From assembly GCA_946187775.1 (NCBI GenBank), contig CAMHSI010000002.1, positions 1 through 64,000 of the forward strand: a stretch of 64,000 nucleotides of DNA, in the 5' to 3' direction. Source of the stretch: an uncultured Clostridia bacterium (GTDB taxonomy: Bacteria > Bacillota > Clostridia > Christensenellales > Aristaeellaceae). This document shows, one piece after another, positions 3,482-18,507 of this stretch. The notes beneath the pieces were generated by a model. It did not search any database. It saw only the letters and a program-made list of their open reading frames with translations, and had not been told where the DNA came from. Position numbers and translations under genes: made by a program. Each line of letters starts with the position of its first letter. Position 1 is the first letter of the stretch.

Positions 3482-5365
3482 ATGAAAAGCGGAAAAGGGG
3501 AATCATATTTGGCTGGCAGAGCATATCAGATCGCTTATTTTGCCGTTGACTGGAACTATGAGCTGGTCGACAAGACCCTTCACGGCCTGAAGCAGTATAC
3601 GGACACGCATCGGAACGTGCTGCTCCGCATTTTTGACTGCTTCGGCACCGATCAGGACAACGCCAAGGACAGGAGCGAGTACCGGATTTTTTCCCTGCCG
3701 GACCTGAGCGCCTTTGACGGGGTTGTGATCCTGAGCAACCAGATCATTCTCCAGCGGGTGCGGGACGAGCTGGTCCGCCGGATCGACGAGGCCGGCATTC
3801 CCGCCGTCTCCCTGGGCTATCCCCTCCCCGGCTGCGTCACAGTCACCCATGACAACCGTGCCGCCCAGTATGCCATCACGGACCACGTGATCCGGGAACA
3901 CGGGGCCCGGAAGCTGGTGTACCTGACCGGGAACCTCTACAACGGCTGCACCGAGGGGGTCACCCGCCTCCAGGGCTTCCGGGACGCCTGCCGGGACAAC
4001 GGGATCCTCCCCGAGGATGTCCAGGTGCTGGAAAAGACCTGGCGCACCACCGACGGCACGGACACCGCCCGCCAGTGGATCGAGGAGGATCTTCCCCTGC
4101 CCGACGCCTTTATCTGCGCCAATGATGAAATGGCCCTGGGGCTCATGGAAGCACTGCAGGAAAACAACATCTCCATCCCCGGGGATGTCATCGTCACCGG
4201 GTATGACAATCTGGACAGCGCGGCCCTTTCCTGCCCCCGCCTCTCGTCGGTCTACTGCGATTACAGGAAGCTGAATTACCATGCCATGGAAACCCTGATT
4301 TCCATGATCGAGGGAAAACGGGTTCCCTCCGTGGTCAACGGGGAGTTCACCGCCGTCCCCTCCGAATCCTGCGGCTGTCCCGACGATGCCCGTGCCGACA
4401 CCCTGCGGGACCGGTATTTCCAGCAGACCCGTTTCCTCCGCTCCTTTTACCTGCTGCAGGATCAGCTGGCCCAGGAGCTTTTTGAGGCCAACAACCTGAA
4501 GGACCTTACCGCCGCGGTGCTCCGCAACCGGGCCATCTTCGGCTGCCATGACATATTCCTCTGCTTCAACGATTATTACTTCGACAATTATGAGAAGGCC
4601 GAGTGGACCCAGGACTCGGAGAATTACGGTGCGGAAATGGTCCTGGCCAGCCGCAACTACCTCCGTTTCCCCACCCGCCAGCTGCTGCCGGAGCCCTATC
4701 TTTCCCGGGAGCGCTTCCTCATTTTCTATCCCCTGCATTACAACACCTACTCCATCGGGTATATCGCCATGGACGGGCTCAGCGAAGCCGCGAAAATGAA
4801 CCTGCATGAAAGCATCTTCAACTTCCTGGAAATCGCCATTGAAAACATCCGGAAAAAGGAGCTCCTCCGCCGTTTCAACGAAATGCTCGATGACCTCTAC
4901 GTCCACGATGGGCTTACCGGCCTGTATAACCGTTTCGGCCTGCAGCGCTTCGGGCCGGAGATCTACAGCCGCATGCTCCGCAAGTACGGCAGCGCCCAGA
5001 TCCTCTTCACCGATATGGACGGCATGAAGGAGATCAACGACACCTTCAGCCACGATGCCGGCGACACCGCCCTCCGGGCTGTTTCGGAGATCCTGCGGTC
5101 CTGCTGCTCCGGGGAGGATTTCATCATGCGCTACGGCGGGGATGAGTTTGTCGTCATCGCCGGCGGCGGGGAGGAGGACCTGAAGGACCGGGTCCTCGCC
5201 GCGGTGGAAGCCTGGAATGAAAAAAGCGGACAGCCCTTCAGGCTGGGGCTGTCCGTCGGAGTCGTCCATGCGGGGCGCGGCTCAAAGCGCTCTCTGGAAG
5301 ACTGTATCCGCGAAGCGGATAAACTGATGTATGGGATCAAAACAGCAAGAAAGGTTGGCAGATAA
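3482..5365 (+). CDS. LacI/periplasmic-binding-type sensor fused to GGDEF diguanylate cyclase
   Basis: N-terminal ~300 aa resembles LacI-family substrate-binding domain without an HTH (CVTVTHDNRAAQYAITDHVI, ICANDEMALGLMEAL, VTGYDNLDSA); C-terminal GGDEF domain with MRYGGDEFVVIAGG. Confidence 0.85.
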   Translation: MKSGKGESYLAGRAYQIAYFAVDWNYELVDKTLHGLKQYTDTHRNVLLRIFDCFGTDQDNAKDRSEYRIFSLPDLSAFDGVVILSNQIILQRVRDELVRRIDEAGIPAVSLGYPLPGCVTVTHDNRAAQYAITDHVIREHGARKLVYLTGNLYNGCTEGVTRLQGFRDACRDNGILPEDVQVLEKTWRTTDGTDTARQWIEEDLPLPDAFICANDEMALGLMEALQENNISIPGDVIVTGYDNLDSAALSCPRLSSVYCDYRKLNYHAMETLISMIEGKRVPSVVNGEFTAVPSESCGCPDDARADTLRDRYFQQTRFLRSFYLLQDQLAQELFEANNLKDLTAAVLRNRAIFGCHDIFLCFNDYYFDNYEKAEWTQDSENYGAEMVLASRNYLRFPTRQLLPEPYLSRERFLIFYPLHYNTYSIGYIAMDGLSEAAKMNLHESIFNFLEIAIENIRKKELLRRFNEMLDDLYVHDGLTGLYNRFGLQRFGPEIYSRMLRKYGSAQILFTDMDGMKEINDTFSHDAGDTALRAVSEILRSCCSGEDFIMRYGGDEFVVIAGGGEEDLKDRVLAAVEAWNEKSGQPFRLGLSVGVVHAGRGSKRSLEDCIREADKLMYGIKTARKVGR

Positions 5366-5419: not shown

Positions 5420-6082
5420 TTACTTCGTCTCTTTCCCGTTCAGCAGCATGTGCACAATGGCCGCCACCGCGCCGCCGACCAGGGGAGCGAGGATGAACAC
5501 CCAGATGCCGTGCAGGTTCCCGGCAATCAGGGCCGGTCCGAAGGAGCGGGCGGGGTTCACGGAAGTTCCGGTGAAGTTGATGCCCAGCAGGTGAACCAGC
5601 ACCAGCGCGCCGCCGATCACCAGGCCGGCCACGGTGCTGTTTTCCTTCTTGGAGGTAACGCCGAGGATCGCCAGCACAAACACGCAGGTCAGGATCGCTT
5701 CGATCACGAAGGTCGGGAACCAGGCGTCATGATACAGGGCGTTCATTCCCAGCTTGGAGGTGTCCCGCACCACGGTGTTCAGGGCGCCGGCGCCGGCGAT
5801 GGCACCCGCGAACTGGGCCACGATGTAGCCGCAGAAATCCTTCACGGACAGATCGCCCTTGATCAGGAAGGCGATGGAAACCGCGGGGTTGATGTGGCAT
5901 CCGGACACGTTGCCGATGGAGTAGGCCATGGCCACGATCACCAGGCCGAAGGCCAGCGCCGTGCCGATGAGGCCGGCCGTTCCGTTTTCAGGGGTGCAGA
6001 TCTGCCCGGCCACGCCGCAGGCAAAGAACACCAGTACCGCGGTACCGATAAACTCAGCACAATACTTACGAAGATCTTTCAT
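5420..6082 (-). CDS. MIP family aquaporin/glycerol channel
   Basis: MKDLRKYCAEFIGTAVLVFFACG..., two NPA motifs (HINPAVS, SVNPARSFGPA). Start at 6082 after AAAGGAGGGATTTCC. Confidence 0.9.
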   Translation of the reverse strand: MKDLRKYCAEFIGTAVLVFFACGVAGQICTPENGTAGLIGTALAFGLVIVAMAYSIGNVSGCHINPAVSIAFLIKGDLSVKDFCGYIVAQFAGAIAGAGALNTVVRDTSKLGMNALYHDAWFPTFVIEAILTCVFVLAILGVTSKKENSTVAGLVIGGALVLVHLLGINFTGTSVNPARSFGPALIAGNLHGIWVFILAPLVGGAVAAIVHMLLNGKETK

Positions 6083-6166
6083 GGAAATCCCTCCTTTTTT
6101 TCCAAAAGAGGATAGCACAATGTACGGACAAAATCAAGTCCGGGCACAGCGCATCGGTATAGCGCT

Positions 6167-6434
6167 CTAATAACCAGGCTGATTCCATGATCGATGTTCT
6201 TCGATTAATTGAGCAACCGTTGAATTGCCATGGTCACCATCTGGCCCCCCATTCATCCCCAAGATAAATAATCCGCTGCCCGCGCCATTCTTTGTTCAGC
6301 ATTGTACAAAAGGCTCTGAGACCCATGCAGTCATACCAAATCGTTTGATATAGCTTGCACCTTGAATCATCAAAATCTCCGCACTGGATGAACTCACGTC
6401 GATCCATATTTACCCAGGAATAGTACACGCCCAT
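6167..6434 (-). pseudogene. Small hypothetical protein gene with apparent frameshift
   Basis: 66 aa ORF (6234-6434) with good RBS (GAGGTAACAAA-ATG); coding-like sequence continues in the +1 frame (GPDGDHGNSTVAQLIEEHRSWNQPGY*) to a stop at 6167-6169, with the frame change at a six-base G/C run (6245-6250). Confidence 0.45.
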
Positions 6435-6457
6435 TTTGTTACCTCAATAGACTCATG

Positions 6458-6627
6458 TTATTCCGCAATGCCCTCTCTCTTGAACTTCACCGGCATATGT
6501 TTGTCGATCTGCTCAGGTTCATATTCAAAACTGGCGCAGATGATCCGAGGTCCGTCCAGCGTCAGGGTTCTGCCATGCAACTGGTCTGTCAGGTACTGCC
6601 GGCATTTCTCATATTCTTTGTTCGATA
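6458..6627 (-). pseudogene. C-terminal fragment of an unknown ORF adjoining the CRISPR array
   Basis: Manual minus-strand translation ISNKEYEKCRQYLTDQLHGRTLTLDGPRIICASFEYEPEQIDKHMPVKFKREGIAE*, no credible start; its 5' end abuts a partial CRISPR repeat at 6628-6638. Confidence 0.45.
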
Positions 6628-6894
6628 TACTCTCAAACGATCACTTTATTAATAATCCACAATAAAAGAATTATATTCCCCTACAAGATTACACTACTCT
6701 CAAACATCCCAACGCGGTTCCCTTCTGGCTGACGCGTTTTATTCCCCTACAAGATTACACTACTCTCAAACACGGCGCATTTGCAATGCCCAACCGTGCG
6801 GGTTTTATTCCCCTACAAGATTACACTACTCTCAAACTACCGGGAGTTCTGGCTGGCTACCCGTATCGTTTTATTCCCCTACAATATTACACTA
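6628..6894 (-). CRISPR. Short type II CRISPR array, partial repeats at both ends
   Basis: 36 bp repeat (plus strand GTTTTATTCCCCTACAAGATTACACTACTCTCAAAC): perfect at 6736-6771 and 6802-6837, degenerate at 6670-6705, truncated 27 bp at 6868-6894, and an 11 bp remnant TACTCTCAAAC at 6628-6638. Spacers of exactly 30 bp at 6706-6735, 6772-6801 and 6838-6867; 31 bp gap at 6639-6669. Confidence 0.95.
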
Positions 6895-7705
6895 TGCCAA
6901 GCGTAAAGGATCTGATCTCTGCATATTCCGGATTCCCAAAGAGCTTTTCAGCATCGATTGTGCCACCGCACAAGCCCTTCAGGATCATTTCTGCATCATA
7001 GGGAAATTCCTCACTTGCTTTAGGTGGCTTTGCCCCACCGAAACAAATGGTTTTCAGCCGTTTCATTCTGTTGTTGATGCCGGTATGCTCGTGCAGTACC
7101 TTCCCGAATTCGTCAAGGTCGCAGCCATCCCATGGCAGTTGTACACCATTCTCGGTAAAATAATCCTGCAGTCCTGTGTATACCAGATGAAAATCTGTAA
7201 CTTTATCAATCTTTTCTTTCTCAATCTCATTCAGGAAGTGACCACGGTGCACCAAAAGCCATTCACAGGCCAGATAGACAAGTCTGGGATCATGAGGGTC
7301 ATCCGACTCCATTAATTCGACTATCAAATGATGAATGGTTGGATACTGCTTGTTAAACTCCCGGTCAGTAAACCCGGGATCATTGAAAAACAGATATCTT
7401 CCTTCTCTTTTCTCCGGCTGAAGACCGCTCATCTGAAGCCGTCTGAAAAAGCCCGGGTCTATTTTGTCAATCACCGGTGCAAAAAGCTCCTGCAGAAGCT
7501 GAACGCGCTGCTGCCTGCGTTTCAGTCTGCGCCGGGCAATACGGAAATTCCGCCTGTCTGTATTCAGATTCGCCTGTTCAAACAGCGTAACGCCCCAGGC
7601 CGGTTCCCCATGAAACTTTCGAAGGGTGTAAGCTTCGTCCGTTACAGCGTAACCAACAGAATCCGTACCGATATCAAGCCCCAGGTAGTATTCTTTTTCT
7701 GACAT
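6887..7705 (-). pseudogene. cas9: Truncated Cas9 (N-terminal 272 aa: RuvC-I, bridge helix, part of REC lobe)
   Basis: MSEKEYYLGLDIGTDSVGYAVTDEAY... (RuvC-I), RRNFRIARRRLKRRQQRVQLLQELF (Arg-rich bridge helix), REC-like LVYLACEWLLVHRGHFL. Reading frame ends inside the truncated CRISPR repeat; no HNH, RuvC-II/III or PI domain and no cas1/cas2 in the window. Confidence 0.92.
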
Positions 7706-7706
7706 A

Positions 7707-7735
7707 TTGACAAACTCCTTTCGAGAATGTATCCT
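7707..7735 (+). promoter_or_regulatory. Sigma70-like promoter for tracrRNA
   Basis: TTGACA (7707-7712), 17 bp, TATCCT (7730-7735); predicted start ~7742 immediately before the anti-repeat. Overlaps the cas9 leader/RBS on the opposite strand. Confidence 0.75.
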
Positions 7736-7741
7736 TATTAC

Positions 7742-7852
7742 GTAATTTCCCCAAGAGATTACACTACGCGTTCAAATAAGCTTTGAGCGAAATCGCCGCT
7801 TCGGCGGCCTCACAGTGTGTGAGATGAGCAGCTTCTTCGGAGGCTGTTTTTT
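7742..7852 (+). ncRNA. tracrRNA
   Basis: Anti-repeat TTTCCCCAAGAGATTACACTACGCGTTCAAAT matches the repeat with a bulge; then hairpins CCGC-TTCG-GCGG (7796-7807), CTCACA-GTG-TGTGAG (7809-7823) and a terminator AGCAGCTTCTTCGGAGGCTGTTTTTT. Confidence 0.88.
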
Positions 7853-8196
7853 ATTTCTTAAACTCACACATAGCAACAATGAAAATCAAACGTAGTGCTG
7901 GAAATCAAGGATTCCTGTGCCCATCTCCTCCGTTCTCAGCAAGAACTTGTTTTGTGGGATATTCGCCGGTTTATCAGAGGCATGACCATATGTCTCTCGG
8001 GAAATCTTGGCCAACTCATTGCAATGCTTCATGTCCATTGCTATTCCCATGCGCCTTATACTGACTATCCGGGTGAACAGTATTTATTATCGCCGTCCAA
8101 TCCTGATCTTCTATTCTTCTGTTCCCCATTTTTCGGGTATTTTTGTTCTCTTCCAGTTTCTCGTTTTGCTCATTATAACCCATCTCGTTCAAATCG

Positions 8197-8228
8197 AAAA
8201 GGGCGGCCACAGCCGCCCTGCAATTTTC
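8197..8228. terminator. Possible terminator hairpin in degraded intergenic region
   Basis: GGGCGGC-caca-GCCGCCC flanked by A-rich 5' and T-rich 3' sequence. Confidence 0.45.
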
Positions 8229-8525
8229 TTCATACCTGTTTTAGATAACCCTCGTTTTCATTCTCCTGCGTTGAAAGCGTTGGGGCATACCCGGCATAAA
8301 ACACTGCATCCCCGTCTTCATTTGCCTAATTCAATACATCCTTTTTCCTGAGAGTCCCGCTCTTCAGCCAGGATCATTTTCCCTTCGTTCACACCTGCTG
8401 CAAAGGATTCGCTTTTTCCAGCGCCCAGATTTTTTCTGAAGCCGAGCCTGTATCTGTCAGCAGCGCGGCATATTTACGGATTAGTCCTGTACTTGTGAAT
8501 CTGGCATATATTCTTCCGAGTTTCC

Positions 8526-10634
8526 TTATGAAACCGGGAGGATGGCCAGGCTGCTGCCCTGGTCCACCGTGAAGCGGTAATCCCGGGTCAGGGGGACCAT
8601 CTCCTCCGCCCGCAGGCCCATTTCCGCCAGCTCCGCCGCGGAAAAGCTGTCGTAAACCGCGGCGTCATCGGAGAAGCCGCAGAAGGGAACGATGTACAGC
8701 TCCAGCCGATGCCCGGCGGGAACCGTGTAATAGGCGGGCTGCAGATATAATGTGTAATCGTACCATGTATCCGCGGCGATGTCCTCTTCCCGCTTCACAG
8801 CGGTGGACGGAAGGTATCCCGCCTCCGGGTTGCGCAGGTCCATGACCCCGTAGGCAATCACCTTCCGGTCCCTTTCCGCCTGCTTCCAGGCAACCAGGTC
8901 GTAAGGCTTCACGCCCTCTCCCCGGTCCACGCCGCCCTCCCGGATCGTTTGCTGCTCCAGCACGCCGACGCTGCCCACATCGAAGCAGGGGAAGGGCTCC
9001 TCCGCCCGGTCCACCAGCACGGCGCCCAGCATCAGGACGTTTTTGTCCGTATCCGGGGTTTTCACCCGCAGGCGGACCTCCGGAACGCCGCAGACCGTCG
9101 TGTCCTCCTTAACGTCCATAGTCCAGACCAGGCGGTCCTCTCCGGAGGAACCGTCGAAGGTACCGCTGAGCAGGCCGGTGTTGCTCATGCGGGCGCCGGC
9201 GGCGGAAACGGTATATTCCCCTGCCGCATCCGGCACAAGCCTGAGCGTATTCCCCGTCATCCAGCGGTCGGTGCCGAAAAAGCTGCCGTCCACATTGCTC
9301 TGCACGGTGAACTCCGGCATCCGGCTGATCCCGTTCTCCTCGCCCAGCAGGAAATGGGTGAACCACAAATTGAGCCACTCCGTATAGGTGTGTTCGCCGA
9401 TCAGGATATCCGTTTCCGTCTGCTCGTTGGCCGGGGTAACATGCCCGTTCTGGTGGAGCAGGCACCGGACCTCGCACCCGCAGCGCAGGAGGGCGTCCCG
9501 CATCAGGGCAAACTGCCTGGGATGAACCGTCTCGTCGTTCAGGCCCTGCACGATCAGCGCGGACGCCCGGAAATCCGGGCTGCCCAGCACATCCCGCTCC
9601 GCCCAAAAGCTGCCGTAATCCCCCTGCAGCGCAGCCTGCCGGTCCCGCACCCAGGCCAGGTACCGCTCATAATGGTCCTTCAGTCCTTCCTCCCGAACGG
9701 GGAAACGGCTGGCGCACATGGCGGAAAGGTCCGCGATCGCGTCATAGCGGGACAGAAGGCCGGAGGGAACTCCCTGGGCGTTGGCGTAGTCATACCAGCT
9801 GGCGGGGCCAGCCACGGGCACGATGGTTTCCAGCCCCTCCAGCCCCATGGACGCCAGCTCGAAAGCCAGGGCGCCCGCGTAGGAACGGCCGGTCATCCCG
9901 ATTTTCCCGCTGCACCAGTCCGCCTCCACCCGGTATTCCCCCGCCGGATCCCCGTAGGCGCTGCGCTTTCCCGTCAACCATTCGATCACGCAGGCAAAGG
10001 CCTTCGCCTCCAGGTCGCTGGCGCAGCATTCAATGCCCTCCGATCCCCAGGTGCCCGGTCCCGCGGCCTGGACAACAGCAAAGCCCCGCACCAGGAAGTA
10101 ATCGTAGGCGGTCAGGTTCCCCAGGTACTGCTGGTCAAAGGGATCGTTCTCCAGGTGATAGTACCAGTCCTCCGGACGGGCCCGGGAAGCCAGCTCCAGG
10201 GTGCTCACCGTCCCCTTCGGAACGCGCTTTTCCGGCCGGGTATACAGGACGCTTTCGTCAAATTCATAGGTCCCCGCGGCGGGCAGGGTCGGGTTATAGG
10301 TGTACATGCCGGCGATATAGGGCCGCGCCTCATAGATCACGGGAGCCCGGTAGGCGCCCTCCGCGGCCGCCCGGGGTACCTGCACCATGGCCTTGATCAG
10401 GTCGGGCTTCCCGTCCAGGTCGGTGTCATAGTCCGTTTCCACGTAGACCGCAAAGCGCAGCAGCTCGCTTCCCTCATTGGTATAATCCAGGTTCTGCGCG
10501 TCGGTATAGCGCGCGATGGGCTGGGCCATGCCGTTTTCGACCACCATCCCCGCCGTCTCCGCAGGAGCGCATCCCACTGCAAGGAGAAGCAGGAGGACCA
10601 GGCAGATGCCGATTCGTGATTTCATGCTGTTCAT
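8526..10634 (-). CDS. Secreted (lipoprotein) CocE/NonD-family hydrolase, Xaa-Pro dipeptidyl-peptidase-like
   Basis: Signal peptide with lipobox-like LLLLLAVGCAPAE; S15-type nucleophile elbow GMTGRSYAGALAFELA; C-terminal jelly-roll-like region (VPAGHRLELYIVPF). Confidence 0.8.
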   Translation of the reverse strand: MNSMKSRIGICLVLLLLLAVGCAPAETAGMVVENGMAQPIARYTDAQNLDYTNEGSELLRFAVYVETDYDTDLDGKPDLIKAMVQVPRAAAEGAYRAPVIYEARPYIAGMYTYNPTLPAAGTYEFDESVLYTRPEKRVPKGTVSTLELASRARPEDWYYHLENDPFDQQYLGNLTAYDYFLVRGFAVVQAAGPGTWGSEGIECCASDLEAKAFACVIEWLTGKRSAYGDPAGEYRVEADWCSGKIGMTGRSYAGALAFELASMGLEGLETIVPVAGPASWYDYANAQGVPSGLLSRYDAIADLSAMCASRFPVREEGLKDHYERYLAWVRDRQAALQGDYGSFWAERDVLGSPDFRASALIVQGLNDETVHPRQFALMRDALLRCGCEVRCLLHQNGHVTPANEQTETDILIGEHTYTEWLNLWFTHFLLGEENGISRMPEFTVQSNVDGSFFGTDRWMTGNTLRLVPDAAGEYTVSAAGARMSNTGLLSGTFDGSSGEDRLVWTMDVKEDTTVCGVPEVRLRVKTPDTDKNVLMLGAVLVDRAEEPFPCFDVGSVGVLEQQTIREGGVDRGEGVKPYDLVAWKQAERDRKVIAYGVMDLRNPEAGYLPSTAVKREEDIAADTWYDYTLYLQPAYYTVPAGHRLELYIVPFCGFSDDAAVYDSFSAAELAEMGLRAEEMVPLTRDYRFTVDQGSSLAILPVS

Positions 10635-10667: not shown

Positions 10668-11765
10668 TCAACTGGGGTCCTCGGAATCGGCAATGAAGAT
10701 CAGCTGCCGGTTTTCCAGTTCCACGGTTCCGGGCGTTCTCACAACCGGGTCGTTATACCCGTGGGGACCTTCCTTGACAATCACAATCCGGTTCTCCTCC
10801 GCATGGTCAATCAGGTAGTCATAATTGTATCCGTCCAGGACATAAAGCTCCTCCTGAACCGGATCATAGACGATCAGGTCCGTACGGACCATCCCGCTTC
10901 CCCAGGTGACGTTGGTAAAAAGATCCGTGCACCCGTCTCCGGTGATATCGAACACTTCATACAGGCGGGATCCGGAAGCATCATATGCCGGGATTCCCCC
11001 CGCCGGAAGCCGCTCTCCGATGAACTCGCTCATCTTCCGCAAAGCTTCTTCCGGATCGATGCCAAAGTCCGCCAGGTTTCCCAATGAACCCGCTGCCGGT
11101 TCCGCAGCGGCCACCGGATCAAGCTCAAGGCCGGGCAGTGCCAGGAGGGTCCGGATCTCTGCAGGATTGTCCCGGTATTCCCCGGGAATATCCAGGAACT
11201 GTCCGCTTGCCGAATGATAGCCGAAAGAAACCAGGATCGGCGCTCCTTTTTCAAAGAAATACAGGTAGTAGACTGTTTCTTCCGCTGTCAGGCGGTCATC
11301 CCGGATGAACGCGTTCGCCAGGGTGAAAAAGGACATGTATTCAGCCCCTGCGGCGGCGTTGATCCGTGCGCACAGGGCCGGCAGGCTCAGGCGGGACAGA
11401 ATCAGCTCCCGCAGGGCCGGAGAAAGACGGCGGTACTTTTCCAGGGCTTCCGGTTCCTCCCGCAGGAGCTTTTCCACCAGCGTTTCCGGATCCTCCAGGC
11501 GGATGGCATAAACCGCCGCGGGACGGTCATAGTCATGGGTGTTCACCCGTTCCCGGACTTTGCTGAAGGATTCCGGCATGGCGAACAGGGACAGGTAGTC
11601 TTCGCTGTCCACGATCTCTCCCATCAGCCGGGTTACTTCCAGGCCGATCCCGTAATAATCCGGCGCCGCTGTTTCCCCGAGCGTGCTGCACACGGTGCAG
11701 AAAAGCAGGGCCGCAAGAAAAAGGGTACAGATTCTGTTCCTGGTACGCATCGTTGTCCTCCTCAC
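10668..11765 (-). CDS. Secreted hypothetical protein
   Basis: 365 aa, signal peptide (ICTLFLAALLFCTVCSTLGETA); contains VFDITGDGCTDLFTNVTWGSGMVRTDLIVYD, FG-GAP/VCBS-like. Confidence 0.6.
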   Translation of the reverse strand: MRRTTMRTRNRICTLFLAALLFCTVCSTLGETAAPDYYGIGLEVTRLMGEIVDSEDYLSLFAMPESFSKVRERVNTHDYDRPAAVYAIRLEDPETLVEKLLREEPEALEKYRRLSPALRELILSRLSLPALCARINAAAGAEYMSFFTLANAFIRDDRLTAEETVYYLYFFEKGAPILVSFGYHSASGQFLDIPGEYRDNPAEIRTLLALPGLELDPVAAAEPAAGSLGNLADFGIDPEEALRKMSEFIGERLPAGGIPAYDASGSRLYEVFDITGDGCTDLFTNVTWGSGMVRTDLIVYDPVQEELYVLDGYNYDYLIDHAEENRIVIVKEGPHGYNDPVVRTPGTVELENRQLIFIADSEDPS

Positions 11766-11826
11766 ATCCGTCGTTTTCTTTTACGGAACCAATGGTATGG
11801 AATCATCGGCTGTTCCTGCCCTGCCG

Positions 11827-12420
11827 TTATGGTTTTTTAATCAGGATCGCATTCATCCATACCAGGTCCTCCCGGCCCGGCAGGGCATCCTGGGTCATGA
11901 AAAAAGCGCGGGGCTGCAATGCTTCGATATCCCGCAGGAGCTCCCGCAGCAGGGGCTCCGTCAGGCAGGTGTAATACCGCCCGTCCCGGATTCCGGCAAA
12001 GTCCCCGTGTTTAAAAGACATAAAGAATGCGCCGCCGGGATCAAGGGCCTCGGTGAGCCTCCGGACCACATCGTGGATGGCCCGGGGCGGAAGGTGCAGC
12101 AGCGACGCGTTGGCCCAGATTCCATGATAGCTGCCGTCGGGCATAAAGGCGGCAAAATCGCTGCAGACCGCCTTCAGGCCGGTGTACTCCTCTGTCGCCC
12201 TGCACATTTCTGCGGATCCGTCCACCGCGGTCACATGATAGCCCCGGTCCAGGAAGGCTTTGCTGTCCCGGCCCGAACCGCAGCCCAGGTCCAGGATGTT
12301 TCCGCCATCCGGCAGCAGCTTCGTAAAGCGGTCCCGGATCGCGGCCATATCCGCATTTCTGGTCAGCCGGACATATGCTTCAGCGTTTTTGTTGTAATAC
12401 TCGATCGTCGGATTGTTCAT
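11827..12420 (-). CDS. Class I SAM-dependent methyltransferase
   Basis: Motif I NILDLGCGSGRDSKAFLDRGYHVTAVDGS. Confidence 0.85.
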   Translation of the reverse strand: MNNPTIEYYNKNAEAYVRLTRNADMAAIRDRFTKLLPDGGNILDLGCGSGRDSKAFLDRGYHVTAVDGSAEMCRATEEYTGLKAVCSDFAAFMPDGSYHGIWANASLLHLPPRAIHDVVRRLTEALDPGGAFFMSFKHGDFAGIRDGRYYTCLTEPLLRELLRDIEALQPRAFFMTQDALPGREDLVWMNAILIKKP

Positions 12421-12629
12421 CGGTTTCCTCCGTCGCAGCCGGATCCCGGGTTTTCTGCCCGGATCCCCTGCCCAAGGATATCACATCCCGCCCCCAACCG
12501 GCAACAGAGTCCCTGTGCCTGCCCGGCACCGGTCGAAGCTTTTCTATGACGAAGCCCCTGTCTTCTTTCGAAAACAGGGGCCTTGCATTTGTTTTTGATT
12601 CCGCCTTCCGACGGGTTCCGCCCGGGAAC

Positions 12630-14396
12630 TTACTGGACAGCAGCTGCCTGGGCCTGCTGGGCAGCCCAGCAGAGGGCAGCCTGTTCCTCACACCATTTGA
12701 CGCACTCCTGGTAGCCGTAGCTGTTGGCCTGCTTGATCATCTCATTGAGGTGGAAGTTGAACTCGCCGTCGTTCTTGGCGTAGATCGCCCGCCAGGAGCC
12801 GGTCTTCACCGCGGTCTGGATCTGGCTCCATTTCTTGTCCAGGTCTCCGTCCCGGGTGGCGGGGGCATAGGTGCCCTTGTCCAGCATGACCTTGTAGGGG
12901 TGGTTTTCCAGGTACTGCTGGGTGTTCGACACGCCGGACCATTCGCACCATTCCTTCTGAATGGGCAGCAGGTCCGCTCCCAGCACGCTGACCCATCCTT
13001 CCTTGTCCAGGGTTTCCTGCAGCTTGCTGTCGGGATTCTGCTGGCTGGCGGTCAGGGTGGTGTTGTTGATCTGCAGGGCGCCGTCGTTATAGGTGCCGCT
13101 CTGGGGATATTCCTTGCCGGTCCGCGGTCCGATGACGGTGGTTCCGGTCATGTCATAGGAGGGATCCTGGCTGGTCTTGAGGCCGAGCTCCGTGAAGTAC
13201 GCGCCGCCTTCCTCGTTGTAATCCCAGGTCAGGCCCTTCGGTCCGTACCACATGGTCATGGAGCCTTCCGGGGTGGCCAGCCAGTCGATCACCGCCAGGC
13301 ACAGCTCCGGATACTCCGCGTCCGCGCCGATGGACCAGATCCGGTTGCCGCCGGTCAGGCTGGAGCCGTAAACGATGGGGGTCGCTTCCTCGGGCAGGAA
13401 GGTATACATGTACTTGCCCTGCTCCAGGTGCTCCTTCGTGTTGAAGATGGAGGATCCCGCGTAGTTGAAGATGGACCAGAAGGTGCCGCCCGCCTTAACC
13501 TTTTCACCCATGGTGGCGTAGACCTGGCTGGCGGAGTTGGGATCCAGCAGTCCTTCCCGGTACAGCTTGTTGAAGAACTTCAGCATCTCGATATACATGC
13601 CGTCTTCCTGCAGGCATCCCTGGAATTCGCCGGTCTCCGTGCTGATCATGCCCAGCTCAAATTCATCCCATCCGTAATAGGCGGTGGCCAGGGATTTGAC
13701 ATACATGACCATGTTTCCGTCCCAGTCCGGCCAGATGGAAACGGCGTAGGTCTCGTTTCCGTTGTCGTCCTTGGGGCAGATTTCCTTCATCTTTTTGAAC
13801 ATTTCCACCATGTCGTCCAGGTTCTTGACCTCCGGGAATCCCAGCTGCTTGTACAGGTCCCAGCGGATATCCCAGGTGTAGAAGAAGCTGTCATGGCTCC
13901 CCGCCTTCAGCGCCACGTTGTGGCCGAAGCCGTGGATTTTGCCGTCGCTGTTCTTGGCCCGGTTGGTTTCCAGGGCCCGCTGGTAGTTGGCCCAGACATA
14001 GGGGGCGTAGGTTTCCGCCAGGCCGTCCTCCTCCCAGTCCAGGAGCAGGCCCTGCTCCACCGCGGACTGGTACTGGTCGCCGTCGGCGCCCCAGACCACG
14101 ATGTCGCCCAGGTTCCCGCTCTCCATCCGGGTGGCGTAGGTGCCGTCCGAATCCGGGATGATGTTGACCTTCACGTTGAATTTGTCCAGCAGCAGGTCCG
14201 CGCTCCAGTGCGCCTGCACGCCGGAATAGTTGGCCAGCTGGCTGTATACGTTGATGGTAATTGGCTCTCCGTCATAGACGCCGATTTCCTCCAGCCGGGC
14301 GTAGGCGTCCGCGTCCTCCGCCGCGGCTGCGGTCCAGCCGCCGATCATCGTCATCGCCAGCGCTGCCGCCAGCAGCAATGCCCAGATTTTCCTCAT
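12630..14396 (-). CDS. ABC transporter extracellular (sugar) solute-binding protein
   Basis: 588 aa, signal peptide MRKIWALLLAAALAMTMIGGWTAAAAE; large LplA-like SBP; follows two permease genes. Confidence 0.85.
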   Translation of the reverse strand: MRKIWALLLAAALAMTMIGGWTAAAAEDADAYARLEEIGVYDGEPITINVYSQLANYSGVQAHWSADLLLDKFNVKVNIIPDSDGTYATRMESGNLGDIVVWGADGDQYQSAVEQGLLLDWEEDGLAETYAPYVWANYQRALETNRAKNSDGKIHGFGHNVALKAGSHDSFFYTWDIRWDLYKQLGFPEVKNLDDMVEMFKKMKEICPKDDNGNETYAVSIWPDWDGNMVMYVKSLATAYYGWDEFELGMISTETGEFQGCLQEDGMYIEMLKFFNKLYREGLLDPNSASQVYATMGEKVKAGGTFWSIFNYAGSSIFNTKEHLEQGKYMYTFLPEEATPIVYGSSLTGGNRIWSIGADAEYPELCLAVIDWLATPEGSMTMWYGPKGLTWDYNEEGGAYFTELGLKTSQDPSYDMTGTTVIGPRTGKEYPQSGTYNDGALQINNTTLTASQQNPDSKLQETLDKEGWVSVLGADLLPIQKEWCEWSGVSNTQQYLENHPYKVMLDKGTYAPATRDGDLDKKWSQIQTAVKTGSWRAIYAKNDGEFNFHLNEMIKQANSYGYQECVKWCEEQAALCWAAQQAQAAAVQ

Positions 14397-14412
14397 TTGC
14401 TTATCCTCCTTT

Positions 14413-15369
14413 TTATCCTTTAACCGCTCCCAGCATGATGCCCTTCACGAAGTAGCGCTGCATGAAAGGATACACCAGCAGGATCGGGATGATACTGACC
14501 ATGGACACCGTGTACTGGATCACCCGCTGGTTCAGCATGCTGGCTGCCGCCTGCTCGCTCACCGTTCCTCCCTGGCTCATCATGGCGCCCAGGTTGCTGG
14601 AGGAGTTCAGGTAGATATACAGCCGGTGCTGCAGCGTGTAAAGATCCGGACGGTTGTTCATCAGCAGCAGGGAGTCCTGGAAGGAGTTCCAGTTTCCCAC
14701 CGCGCCGAAGATGGAGATCGTGGCCAGGATCGGAATGCTCAGCGGAAGGATGATCTTCCGCCAGACCGTCAGGGTGGAGGCGCCGTCGATCACCGCGCTT
14801 TCCTCCAGCGAGGACGGAATGCTCTCAATATAGGTCTTCACCAGGATAATGTTGTAGGGGGCCACCATGCCGGGGATGATATAGGCCAGGAAGTTGTCCG
14901 TCAGGCCCATCATCAGCATGTTCATGTACCAGGGAACCAGGCCCGCGTTGAAGTACATGGTGATCACCAGGAACCGGTACCAGAAGGAGCGTTTCCACAT
15001 CTTCTGCTTGGTCACCAGGTATCCCGCCCAGGCGGAGGTAATCACCATCAGCGCCGTTCCCAGGATCGTCCGGACCACGGTGACGATCACGCTGCTTCCC
15101 AGGTCCTGCACGTTCCTCAGCGCCGCGTAGTTGCCCAGCTGCACGCCGAAGACCCCGTTCCCCGCGGCGTCCTTCAGCATGGGAATGAAGTTGATCTTCC
15201 CGCCAGTCACCAGGTCATTGTCGGAAATCGTGTTGATCAGCAGGTAATAGAACGGGAAAATACAGATCAGGGTGAACAGGACAAACAGGATCACCACCGC
15301 GGTGTCGAAAACCCAGTCTCCGGCGGTACGCTTGATATGCATGGCAGGCTCTTTCGTCTTTTTGCTCAT
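14413..15369 (-). CDS. Carbohydrate ABC transporter permease (MalG/LplC-like)
   Basis: 318 aa, multi-TM, EAA-loop ESIPSSLEESAVIDGASTLTVWRKIILPLSIP. Confidence 0.9.
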   Translation of the reverse strand: MSKKTKEPAMHIKRTAGDWVFDTAVVILFVLFTLICIFPFYYLLINTISDNDLVTGGKINFIPMLKDAAGNGVFGVQLGNYAALRNVQDLGSSVIVTVVRTILGTALMVITSAWAGYLVTKQKMWKRSFWYRFLVITMYFNAGLVPWYMNMLMMGLTDNFLAYIIPGMVAPYNIILVKTYIESIPSSLEESAVIDGASTLTVWRKIILPLSIPILATISIFGAVGNWNSFQDSLLLMNNRPDLYTLQHRLYIYLNSSSNLGAMMSQGGTVSEQAAASMLNQRVIQYTVSMVSIIPILLVYPFMQRYFVKGIMLGAVKG

Positions 15370-15384
15370 CTCTCTCGCCTCCCA

Positions 15385-16875
15385 TCATATGATGCTCTCG
15401 CCGCGGATGGCCTTGGAAATGCCGTTCGCGCCGAAGAGCAGCGTCACGCCGATCAGGGATTTGGAAATGCCCACCACCGTGGACAGGGGGATCTGGTTCT
15501 GTCCGATACCGATATGGTACACATACAGATCCAGCACCTCGATGACGTCCTTGTTCATGGCGTTCTCGAAGACCAGGTACTGCTCCATGCCGTTGGAAAG
15601 GATTCCGGCAATGCTCATCAGGAGCATCACCATGTAGGTAGGCATCAGCCCGGGAATGGTGATATGCCAGATGCAGCGGAACCGGTTGGCTCCGTCCACC
15701 CTCGCGGCTTCATACAGCTGCTGGTCGATGCCCGCAATGCCGGCAATGTAGACGATAGCGCTCCATCCTACGCCCTTCCAGGTGCCCCACAGCAGCATTT
15801 TCAGCCAGGTGTGGTCCGCAATCTGCAGGTAGTTGGTGTTGGCCCCCGTCTGGTGCATTACGTTGGTCAGGAAGCTGTTGACAAATCCGTCCGTGGAGAA
15901 GATGGCGATGGCGATGGCGTACACCAGCACCCAGGAAATAAAGTTCGGGATGGTGGTCAGGGTCTGGACCGTCCGCTGGAACTTGGTGGACCGGATCTCC
16001 GCCAGGAGCACCGCGAAGGCGATGGGCAGCCAGGAAGTGGCAATGCCCAGGCCGGACATGATCAGCGTGTTCCGCAGCACCCGCACCAGGTCCCGGACCG
16101 TGGCCGGGTCGTTGAACAGCGATCCGAACCATTTCAGGCCCACAAAGTTCTCCGGCCCGATGCTTCCGCCGGGCTTGTAGTCAAAGAAAGCGTACCGCCA
16201 GCCCCAGATGGGCAGGTAGGCAAAGACGAAGGACAGCAGGATCACCGGCAGCATCATCAGGAAGAGCCGGTACTTCTCGTCCATCTCCATTTTTGCGGCA
16301 GGGTCCTTCTCCGGTTTCATGATCAGGAAGGCGCAAAGCGCCGTCACAAACAGCAGCCCCGCGAAAATGCAGAAAACCGTGAAGCCGTCCGGCAGCATCA
16401 CCCTGATGGTGTCCAGCTTGCCGACTTCCTCCCCGTGAGCCATCATGTTCCGGTAGGCCCGGTGGATCAGGAAAAGGCCGATGCCCATCACCGGCGCGCC
16501 GATCAGCGGCAGCGTAAGGCCCCGGCGCTGCATTTTCCGGTTTCCCAGGCTCATGCAGGCGCCCGCCGCGCAGGCGATCACGCCCAGCATCACGATCACA
16601 CAGGCAATCATCAGGAGCGTGATGTCGCCGTCCTGGATCCAGTGGGACCGCAGGATCCGGCCCATGCTGTTGGTGATGGTTTCCCGGCTGATCCCGGTGG
16701 TGAAAAGGCTGGCCGCCTCATTGATCTTTTCACTGATGCGGCCCGGATTGGCCGGCGGAAAGAACAGGGCCATGCCGGACAGCAGCGCCGTCAGCCGGAA
16801 AATCCACAGAGCAGTCTTTTGCCAGGCGCCCGTTTTTTCCGTCTCCGGCCGGATAACCTTTGTGTGTTCATTCAT
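15385..16875 (-). CDS. Carbohydrate ABC transporter permease (LplB-like) with N-terminal membrane extension
   Basis: 496 aa; C-terminal ~300 aa LplB-like (EAARVDGANRFRCIWHITIPGLMPT); ~190 aa additional N-terminal TM region. Confidence 0.85.
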   Translation of the reverse strand: MNEHTKVIRPETEKTGAWQKTALWIFRLTALLSGMALFFPPANPGRISEKINEAASLFTTGISRETITNSMGRILRSHWIQDGDITLLMIACVIVMLGVIACAAGACMSLGNRKMQRRGLTLPLIGAPVMGIGLFLIHRAYRNMMAHGEEVGKLDTIRVMLPDGFTVFCIFAGLLFVTALCAFLIMKPEKDPAAKMEMDEKYRLFLMMLPVILLSFVFAYLPIWGWRYAFFDYKPGGSIGPENFVGLKWFGSLFNDPATVRDLVRVLRNTLIMSGLGIATSWLPIAFAVLLAEIRSTKFQRTVQTLTTIPNFISWVLVYAIAIAIFSTDGFVNSFLTNVMHQTGANTNYLQIADHTWLKMLLWGTWKGVGWSAIVYIAGIAGIDQQLYEAARVDGANRFRCIWHITIPGLMPTYMVMLLMSIAGILSNGMEQYLVFENAMNKDVIEVLDLYVYHIGIGQNQIPLSTVVGISKSLIGVTLLFGANGISKAIRGESII

Positions 16876-16910
16876 CTCAGCGTGTCACTCCTTGATTGTC
16901 CGGGAACAAG

Positions 16911-16942
16911 CGGCGGCGCCGGTCCAGGGATCGGCGCCGCCG
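16911..16942. other. Intercistronic stem-loop
   Basis: CGGCGGCGCC / 12 nt loop / GGCGCCGCCG between the secreted repeat protein gene and the LplB-like permease gene. Confidence 0.6.
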
Positions 16943-16956
16943 GGGTTGGTTCTTTG

Positions 16957-18507
16957 TCAGTCAGCCATACCGCTCACGGTGAAGGAGATCTCAATGGTCT
17001 CGTTGGGGCCGGGAACGGTGTATCCGAAGGGAGCTTCCGTCTGGGAATAGGTGTTGATGATATCGATCCGGGTGTAGTCGCCTTCCTCGGTATTCACGGT
17101 TCCGCTCTCCTGGGTGGCGCCGCTGCCGATCTTCACCTTGATGTCGCTGATCTTCAGGAAGTCGCCCTTCATCAGCTTGTTGGGAATGTCGGTGGAAACG
17201 AACAGCAGGTTGAAGGCCTTGGTTTCGCCGAAGCCCATCTCGCCGGTGGTCAGGGACACGGTGTATGTGCCGTCTTCCTTGATCTCAACATCCTTGAAGG
17301 TTCCGCCGTAATCCACGGCGTTGTTGTCGGGATCCCAGCCGGTCAGCCGGTTGAAGAAGGGATTCTCGGTATCGTTGAGGCCGTAGCTGTCATACCAGGC
17401 ATTGCGGAACACATAGGTATCCGTTCCCTGCACGCCGATGTAGGCATGGAAGCCGGCTTCCTTGGCGGCCTTGGCTTCTTCCTCGGTCATAACCTCCGCT
17501 TCCTCCACCGGCTTCTCGCCGAAGATGAAGTCGAAGGTCACCTCGATGGTCTTCATGTCCTTGAAGGCTTCTTTTTCAACGATGATGGCGGAAGCGCCTT
17601 CCAGGTCCCCGTCCTTGCGGCGGGCGTCCTTGGGCAGCTCGGTAACCCATTCGTTGAACAGGTTGCTGCGCATTTCGATTCCGTCGTCAGAGCTGGTGTA
17701 GCCCTTTTTCACTTCGACGGCTTCCCCGTTGATCTTCACTTCCTTGACGTCGATGAAGTATCCGGGATAGACCTTGTTTCCGTTCTTGATGATCAGGGCC
17801 GCGAAGGCGATGTCCGCAATGGGCTCTTCCATTTCGATTTTCGCCTGGTAGGTGCCTTCTCCGTTGATGATGGAACCGACGGCTGCCATGTTGGCAGCTT
17901 CCGGAATGCCGCCGAAGTACTGCACGGTCCAGTCGCTGTTGGCAAAGGCGATATAGCAGCTGACCAGCTCCACGTCAAAGTCCACTTCCATGGTCTTGAC
18001 AGCGGTGAAAGCCGCTTTGTCCACCATCTGGGCCGTCAGGTCCGTGGTGTTCCCCTTCACGCTGCGGGCGTCCGCCGGCAGGGCGGTAACCCACTCGTTG
18101 AAGATGTTCATCCGGGTGGCGCCGTCTTCATCGTTGGTGTAGCCTTCCTTGATGTCAACTGCTTCGCCGTTGACCCGGATTTCCTTGATGTTCAGGCACA
18201 GGCCGGGGAAGTTTTCAATGGCGCCCTTGACGATCAGCGCCGTGAAAGCCAGGTCCACGCCGTCCGGAGCGGCTTCGGTGAAGTCCAGGCCGACGGTGTA
18301 GCTTCCGCTGCCGGTAATCTGGGCGTTGGTGGGCTTCACCTTGGTCTCAGCGCCGTCATTCCAGTACTGGACGGTCCAGTCGCTGTTGGCGTAGCCGATG
18401 AAGGCTTCCGCGGTGGGCTGCGCCGTCTCTTCCGCGACGGCGGGGACGATGCCCAGCAGGCCGATAAGCATTGCCAGGCTCAGGATCATGGACAGGATCT
18501 TCTTCAT
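16957..18507 (-). CDS. Secreted hypothetical protein with about three tandem beta-rich repeats
   Basis: Signal peptide MKKILSMILSLAMLIGLLGIVPAVAEE; repeated units IGYANSDWTVQYW / IAFANSDWTVQYFGG / IGVQGTDTYVFRNAW, each followed by G-Y-V/T...F..L.V......KI..I.V and ...NEWVT.LP.DAR.</thinking>. Confidence 0.8.
   Translation of the reverse strand: MKKILSMILSLAMLIGLLGIVPAVAEETAQPTAEAFIGYANSDWTVQYWNDGAETKVKPTNAQITGSGSYTVGLDFTEAAPDGVDLAFTALIVKGAIENFPGLCLNIKEIRVNGEAVDIKEGYTNDEDGATRMNIFNEWVTALPADARSVKGNTTDLTAQMVDKAAFTAVKTMEVDFDVELVSCYIAFANSDWTVQYFGGIPEAANMAAVGSIINGEGTYQAKIEMEEPIADIAFAALIIKNGNKVYPGYFIDVKEVKINGEAVEVKKGYTSSDDGIEMRSNLFNEWVTELPKDARRKDGDLEGASAIIVEKEAFKDMKTIEVTFDFIFGEKPVEEAEVMTEEEAKAAKEAGFHAYIGVQGTDTYVFRNAWYDSYGLNDTENPFFNRLTGWDPDNNAVDYGGTFKDVEIKEDGTYTVSLTTGEMGFGETKAFNLLFVSTDIPNKLMKGDFLKISDIKVKIGSGATQESGTVNTEEGDYTRIDIINTYSQTEAPFGYTVPGPNETIEISFTVSGMAD

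Follow-up and report, generated by a model that had tools for sequence, protein, structure and literature searches.

Deletion is a known route to CRISPR-Cas loss, and both cas9 pseudogenes and orphan type II arrays have been described before. In Staphylococcus epidermidis, more than 1e-4 of cells were reported to lose CRISPR-Cas function or the region itself; such loss carried little or no fitness cost even when the deletions were large (PMC3784566). Two further papers describe cas9 pseudogenes in CRISPR1/CRISPR3 of Streptococcus thermophilus, plus an array without cas genes (PMC6951406), and an orphan type II-A array, CRISPR2, in enterococci (PMC11852239). The locus found in the window (the whole stretch of 64,000 nucleotides that was analysed) is a neat instance of such loss, and very probably a type II-A CRISPR-Cas system inactivated through one internal deletion. 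Like it, the S. epidermidis deletion escapers (PMC3784566) lost cas genes together with some or all of an array through spontaneous deletion; they differ in being type III-A and in their much larger deletions, which arose mostly via IS elements or near-identical genes. The S. thermophilus and enterococcal CRISPR2 systems (PMC6951406, PMC11852239) share with it type II arrays that lack either a functional Cas9 or the cas genes, but a direct fusion of cas9 to a repeat, with the tracrRNA kept, is not among the features described in the passages of the two papers drawn on here.

What remains of cas9 is a minus-strand open reading frame (7705-6887) of 272 aa with the C-terminal end ...RSFTLGIV*. 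The cas9 5' fragment proper (6895..7705, minus strand) encodes residues 1-270 of ~1361, and the frame runs on to 6887 through repeat sequence. The ORF aligns with residues 1-270 of a full-length Cas9 of ~1,360 aa, the closest relative being that of the locus L002 (74% identity). It is matched by the NCBIfam profile cas_Csn1 (TIGR01865: 177 bits, E 4.7e-52; ORF residues 6-254 against profile positions 1-158 of 1070), by the Pfam Cas9 bridge helix profile and by Cas9s with solved structures (best E 1.5e-39). On the L002 domain map the fragment contains RuvC-I, the bridge helix and ~98 residues of the 553-residue REC lobe, while HNH, RuvC-II/III and the PAM-interacting domain are all missing, and the protein is not a full-length Cas9. 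Given known Cas9 biology, the 272 aa fragment would be unable to cut DNA in the Cas9 manner. Because these domains are gone, the remaining tracrRNA, the fragment and the three spacers probably confer no immunity.

Divergent from the broken cas9 lies an intact-looking tracrRNA gene (predicted at about 7742..7855, plus strand). Its predicted promoter (7707..7735, plus strand; TTGACA-17-TATCCT) adjoins the cas9 start, where TTGACA or a close variant is found in most of ten aligned relatives. The predicted gene contains an anti-repeat (~7745-7775, which also falls in repeat family D2), conserved stems and, ahead of a T run, a terminator hairpin (7826-7849). The predicted promoter, anti-repeat, stems and terminator all align across ten relatives, which points to a tracrRNA with its anti-repeat. 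Pairing between repeat and anti-repeat is kept, and the predicted fold of a repeat-tracr fusion has an MFE of -67.9 kcal/mol (z -7.9). Rfam returned no tracrRNA match; the sole match in that search, PhrS, was rejected at 17.8 bits, far under the PhrS threshold. The guide-RNA part of the locus is kept and the protein part is lost. Neither the tracrRNA gene (7707-7855 with its promoter, plus strand) nor csn2 appeared in the original prediction.

The array is built on a 36-nt repeat, GTTTGAGAGTAGTGTAATCTTGTAGGGGAATAAAAC, and all of its elements lie on the minus strand. A cut-off repeat (6868..6894; positions 10-36, with the single substitution C19A) provides the TAA stop of the fused ORF. It is followed by the spacer GATACGGGTAGCCAGCCAGAACTCCCGGTA (6838..6867), a consensus repeat (6802..6837), the spacer CCGCACGGTTGGGCATTGCAAATGCGCCGT (6772..6801), a second consensus repeat (6736..6771), the spacer GCGTCAGCCAGAAGGGAACCGCGTTGGGAT (6706..6735) and a terminal, leader-distal repeat with a degenerate 3' end (...AATATAAT, 6670..6705). 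This is a regular array of three whole repeats and one partial repeat with a 66-nt period and three different 30-nt spacers. In L002, too, this end of the last repeat is degenerate (...CAAAT), which fixes the polarity of the array and places the former leader on the cas9 side; a type II-A array with a degenerate terminal repeat has been described (PMC4466440). Within its own genome the 36-mer is confined to the locus, so chance is excluded as the source of the repeat at the junction. In viral_contigs the repeat is absent, and no exact match to the 3' 19-21 nt of any of the three spacers was found. A blastn search of phages with the full spacers gave no target for the first two and no convincing one for the third; the lone match, to a Rhizobium phage, was judged to be chance at E=0.6. 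No self-targets were seen for two spacers in the genome and for the third in the window.

The fragment and the array meet at 6894..6895 (minus strand), where cas9 sequence ending ...CTTGGC(A) passes into TAGTGTAAT... at repeat position 10. Across the join the minus strand reads ...TTTACGCTTGGC A TAGTGTAATATTGTAGGGGAATAAAAC, with repeat positions 10-36 from TAGTG onward. Homology to Cas9 ends at 6896-6895 and repeat sequence starts at 6894. At the DNA level, L002 cas9 homology reaches the GGC codon directly before the junction and ends there, and the sole base not confidently placed on either side is 6895 (A). To the left of the join, the window has ACGCTTGGCA and the repeat GTTTGAGAG, with no overlap; to the right, L002 cas9 has TCCAAGGAG, continuing TCCAAG where the window carries the repeat. 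When the window is compared with L002 and with the repeat, the two sides of the join overlap by 0 to 1-2 nt at most, and by nothing of k-mer size. Such an overlap would resemble illegitimate joining, a reading that is an estimate, as L002 is not the true ancestor. The join shows neither an IS element nor a long repeat. The original prediction had described an ORF that is Cas9-like from its start for ~270 aa, joins position 10 of a repeat at 6894/6895 and stops at a TAA supplied by that repeat. The matches to TIGR01865, the bridge helix, solved Cas9s and L002 residues 1-270 bear out its identity, the homology stop and repeat start give the same coordinates, and the TAA is indeed read within repeat positions 10-36.

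An intact counterpart is provided by L002 (CAMNEH010000002.1), from an uncultured member of Clostridia in another genus than the window and apparently the same genome as G264. Its order is tracrRNA, divergent cas9 (1361 aa)-cas1-cas2-csn2-leader-31 repeats. Since its Csn2 (TIGR01866, 156.5 bits) and type II Cas1 (TIGR03639, 294 bits) were recognised by NCBIfam, L002 belongs to subtype II-A, and the window holds a degraded II-A member. Window and L002 DNA are 71% identical over 935 nt, from the tracrRNA region through cas9 to the junction, and homology resumes in the repeats. The two loci are alike in the position and sequence of the tracrRNA, the start of cas9 (74% aa identity), the near-identical 36-nt repeat, the 66-nt period and the degenerate last repeat. 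In contrast to the window, L002 has the full cas9, cas1, cas2, csn2, leader and 31 repeats; tblastn searches of the window with the L002 proteins gave no real match for cas1, cas2 or csn2.

The ancestor of the window locus would have been ordered in the same way, with a tracrRNA gene, divergent cas9-cas1-cas2-csn2, leader and array. A single deletion would have taken 80% of cas9, the whole of cas1, cas2 and csn2 and, beyond them, the leader with the spacers nearest to it, thereby joining the first fifth of Cas9 to the array tail and leaving the final three spacer units. Both ends of the L002 order survive in the window, in the same order and orientation, and the middle is missing from the contig. 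In L002 coordinates the missing piece would be ~10814-17857, or ~7.0 kb; because L002 is 74% identical and of another genus, the deletion size and the microhomology are estimates. A single event is the best account of the locus, and two or more successive deletions would look identical. One deletion had been the cause originally proposed, and the survival of both ends with the middle absent supports it. The intact order assumed then, cas9-cas1-cas2-leader-array, is present in L002, except that csn2 had been left out; L002/G264 also answers to the closest intact locus that was to be sought in relatives.

Comparison of the fragment with L002 gave a dN of 0.20 with saturated synonymous sites (pS 0.78), which reflects long purifying selection. 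That selection would have acted mostly before the truncation, and no decay since then is visible. Polarised amino-acid changes number 30 on the window branch and 26 on the L002 branch, so the window branch was not accelerated. The fragment is free of frameshifts and its amino-acid changes are not in excess, which makes it probable that the deletion is young compared with the split from L002. Continued constraint on the fragment would fit the data equally well, and recency is the simpler of the two.

An assembly or binning artefact, with a CRISPR repeat as the point at which an intact locus was wrongly joined, is unlikely. The contig belongs to a metagenome bin that is fragmented (111 contigs) and 63.6% complete, with ~36% of the genome missing, and CRISPR repeats are sites where short-read assemblies go wrong. 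However, a mis-join in the assembly graph requires an overlap of ~20 nt or more. The overlap at the join is far below this and the contig contains no Ns, both of which speak against an ordinary join by the assembler. The missing part of cas9 and cas1 are on no other contig of the bin: among these contigs the complete L002 Cas9 matches only at its residues 1-271, with no other Cas9, and the L002 Cas1 query, positive in G264, G222 and G274, found no Cas1. With the bin 63.6% complete, failure to find cas1 and further cas genes elsewhere is supportive but weak evidence and not proof. The same incompleteness, together with a tracrRNA that appears complete and still pairs with the repeat, would suit an array and tracrRNA working in trans with another Cas9 in the genome, a split system and not a dead one. 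This is extremely unlikely, as the bin contigs hold no second Cas9 and no matching cas9 was found in 44 other species of the genus (G001-G044; 13 of high quality). The array had been called fixed and non-adapting; with the genes visible it could not adapt, but Cas proteins might conceivably be supplied in trans from the ~36% of the genome that is missing. Cas1 exceeds the family cut-off in just two genus members (G044 and G035), and CRISPR looks rare in the genus.

It is also very unlikely that the 272 aa fragment is a retained mini-protein, expressed from its own start signals and functional, for example in binding of the tracrRNA:crRNA duplex or in regulation. The reading frame has no defects, the AAAGGAG ribosome-binding site and the region upstream of the start are intact, and an intact-looking tracrRNA gene stands alongside, all of which would be expected of such a protein. 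However, the short form is found in no relative. A scan of GTDB genomes (genome_contigs) gave 12 relatives, all with cas9 frames of 1342-1377 aa (12/12), and in the genomes of the family whose Cas9 match is real the frame is never shorter than 1018 aa (15/15). The short ORF is therefore not a conserved mini-protein, and relatives sharing it, which the original prediction had named as the finding that would speak for function, were not seen. A short-frame Cas9-like match in G265 was discarded, being weak and located in an aldo/keto reductase-like ORF. Moreover, the time preceding truncation accounts for the low dN, the tail is encoded by the repeat, and normal folding is unlikely for a fragment ending within the REC lobe. 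That the fragment, beside the tracrRNA gene and three-spacer array, was kept as a mini-Cas9 that binds RNA and either regulates guide RNAs or interferes with them is exceedingly improbable.

The CRISPR remnant lies in a low-GC island (6107-8525; 44-48% GC, versus 60% for the window), whose flanks are apparently non-coding or decayed, for example the short minus-strand frames at 6234-6650. Upstream of the tracrRNA, the low-GC flank also contains a perfect 8-bp GC-rich hairpin, AGGGCGGCCACAGCCGCCCT (8200-8219), with a terminator-like score on both strands. The low GC content and the lack of a matching cas9 in the 44 genus species would fit a system that was acquired horizontally and lost later. 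Genus relatives of the neighbouring aquaporin (5423-6085) and S15 hydrolase (8529-10634) gave no empty site for comparison, since they shared no synteny across the locus within flanks of 1.5 kb. Farther out, the gene at 3482-5365 (plus strand) encodes a LacI-type periplasmic-binding-like sensor domain fused to a GGDEF diguanylate cyclase domain.

The locus is an unusually clean scar of a common event, the loss of CRISPR-Cas, and gives no hint of a new type of system. Because both ancestral ends survive, the breakpoint is readable to within one or two bases. Should the fragment be expressed, it would offer a natural way to test whether the N-terminus of Cas9 alone binds tracrRNA:crRNA.
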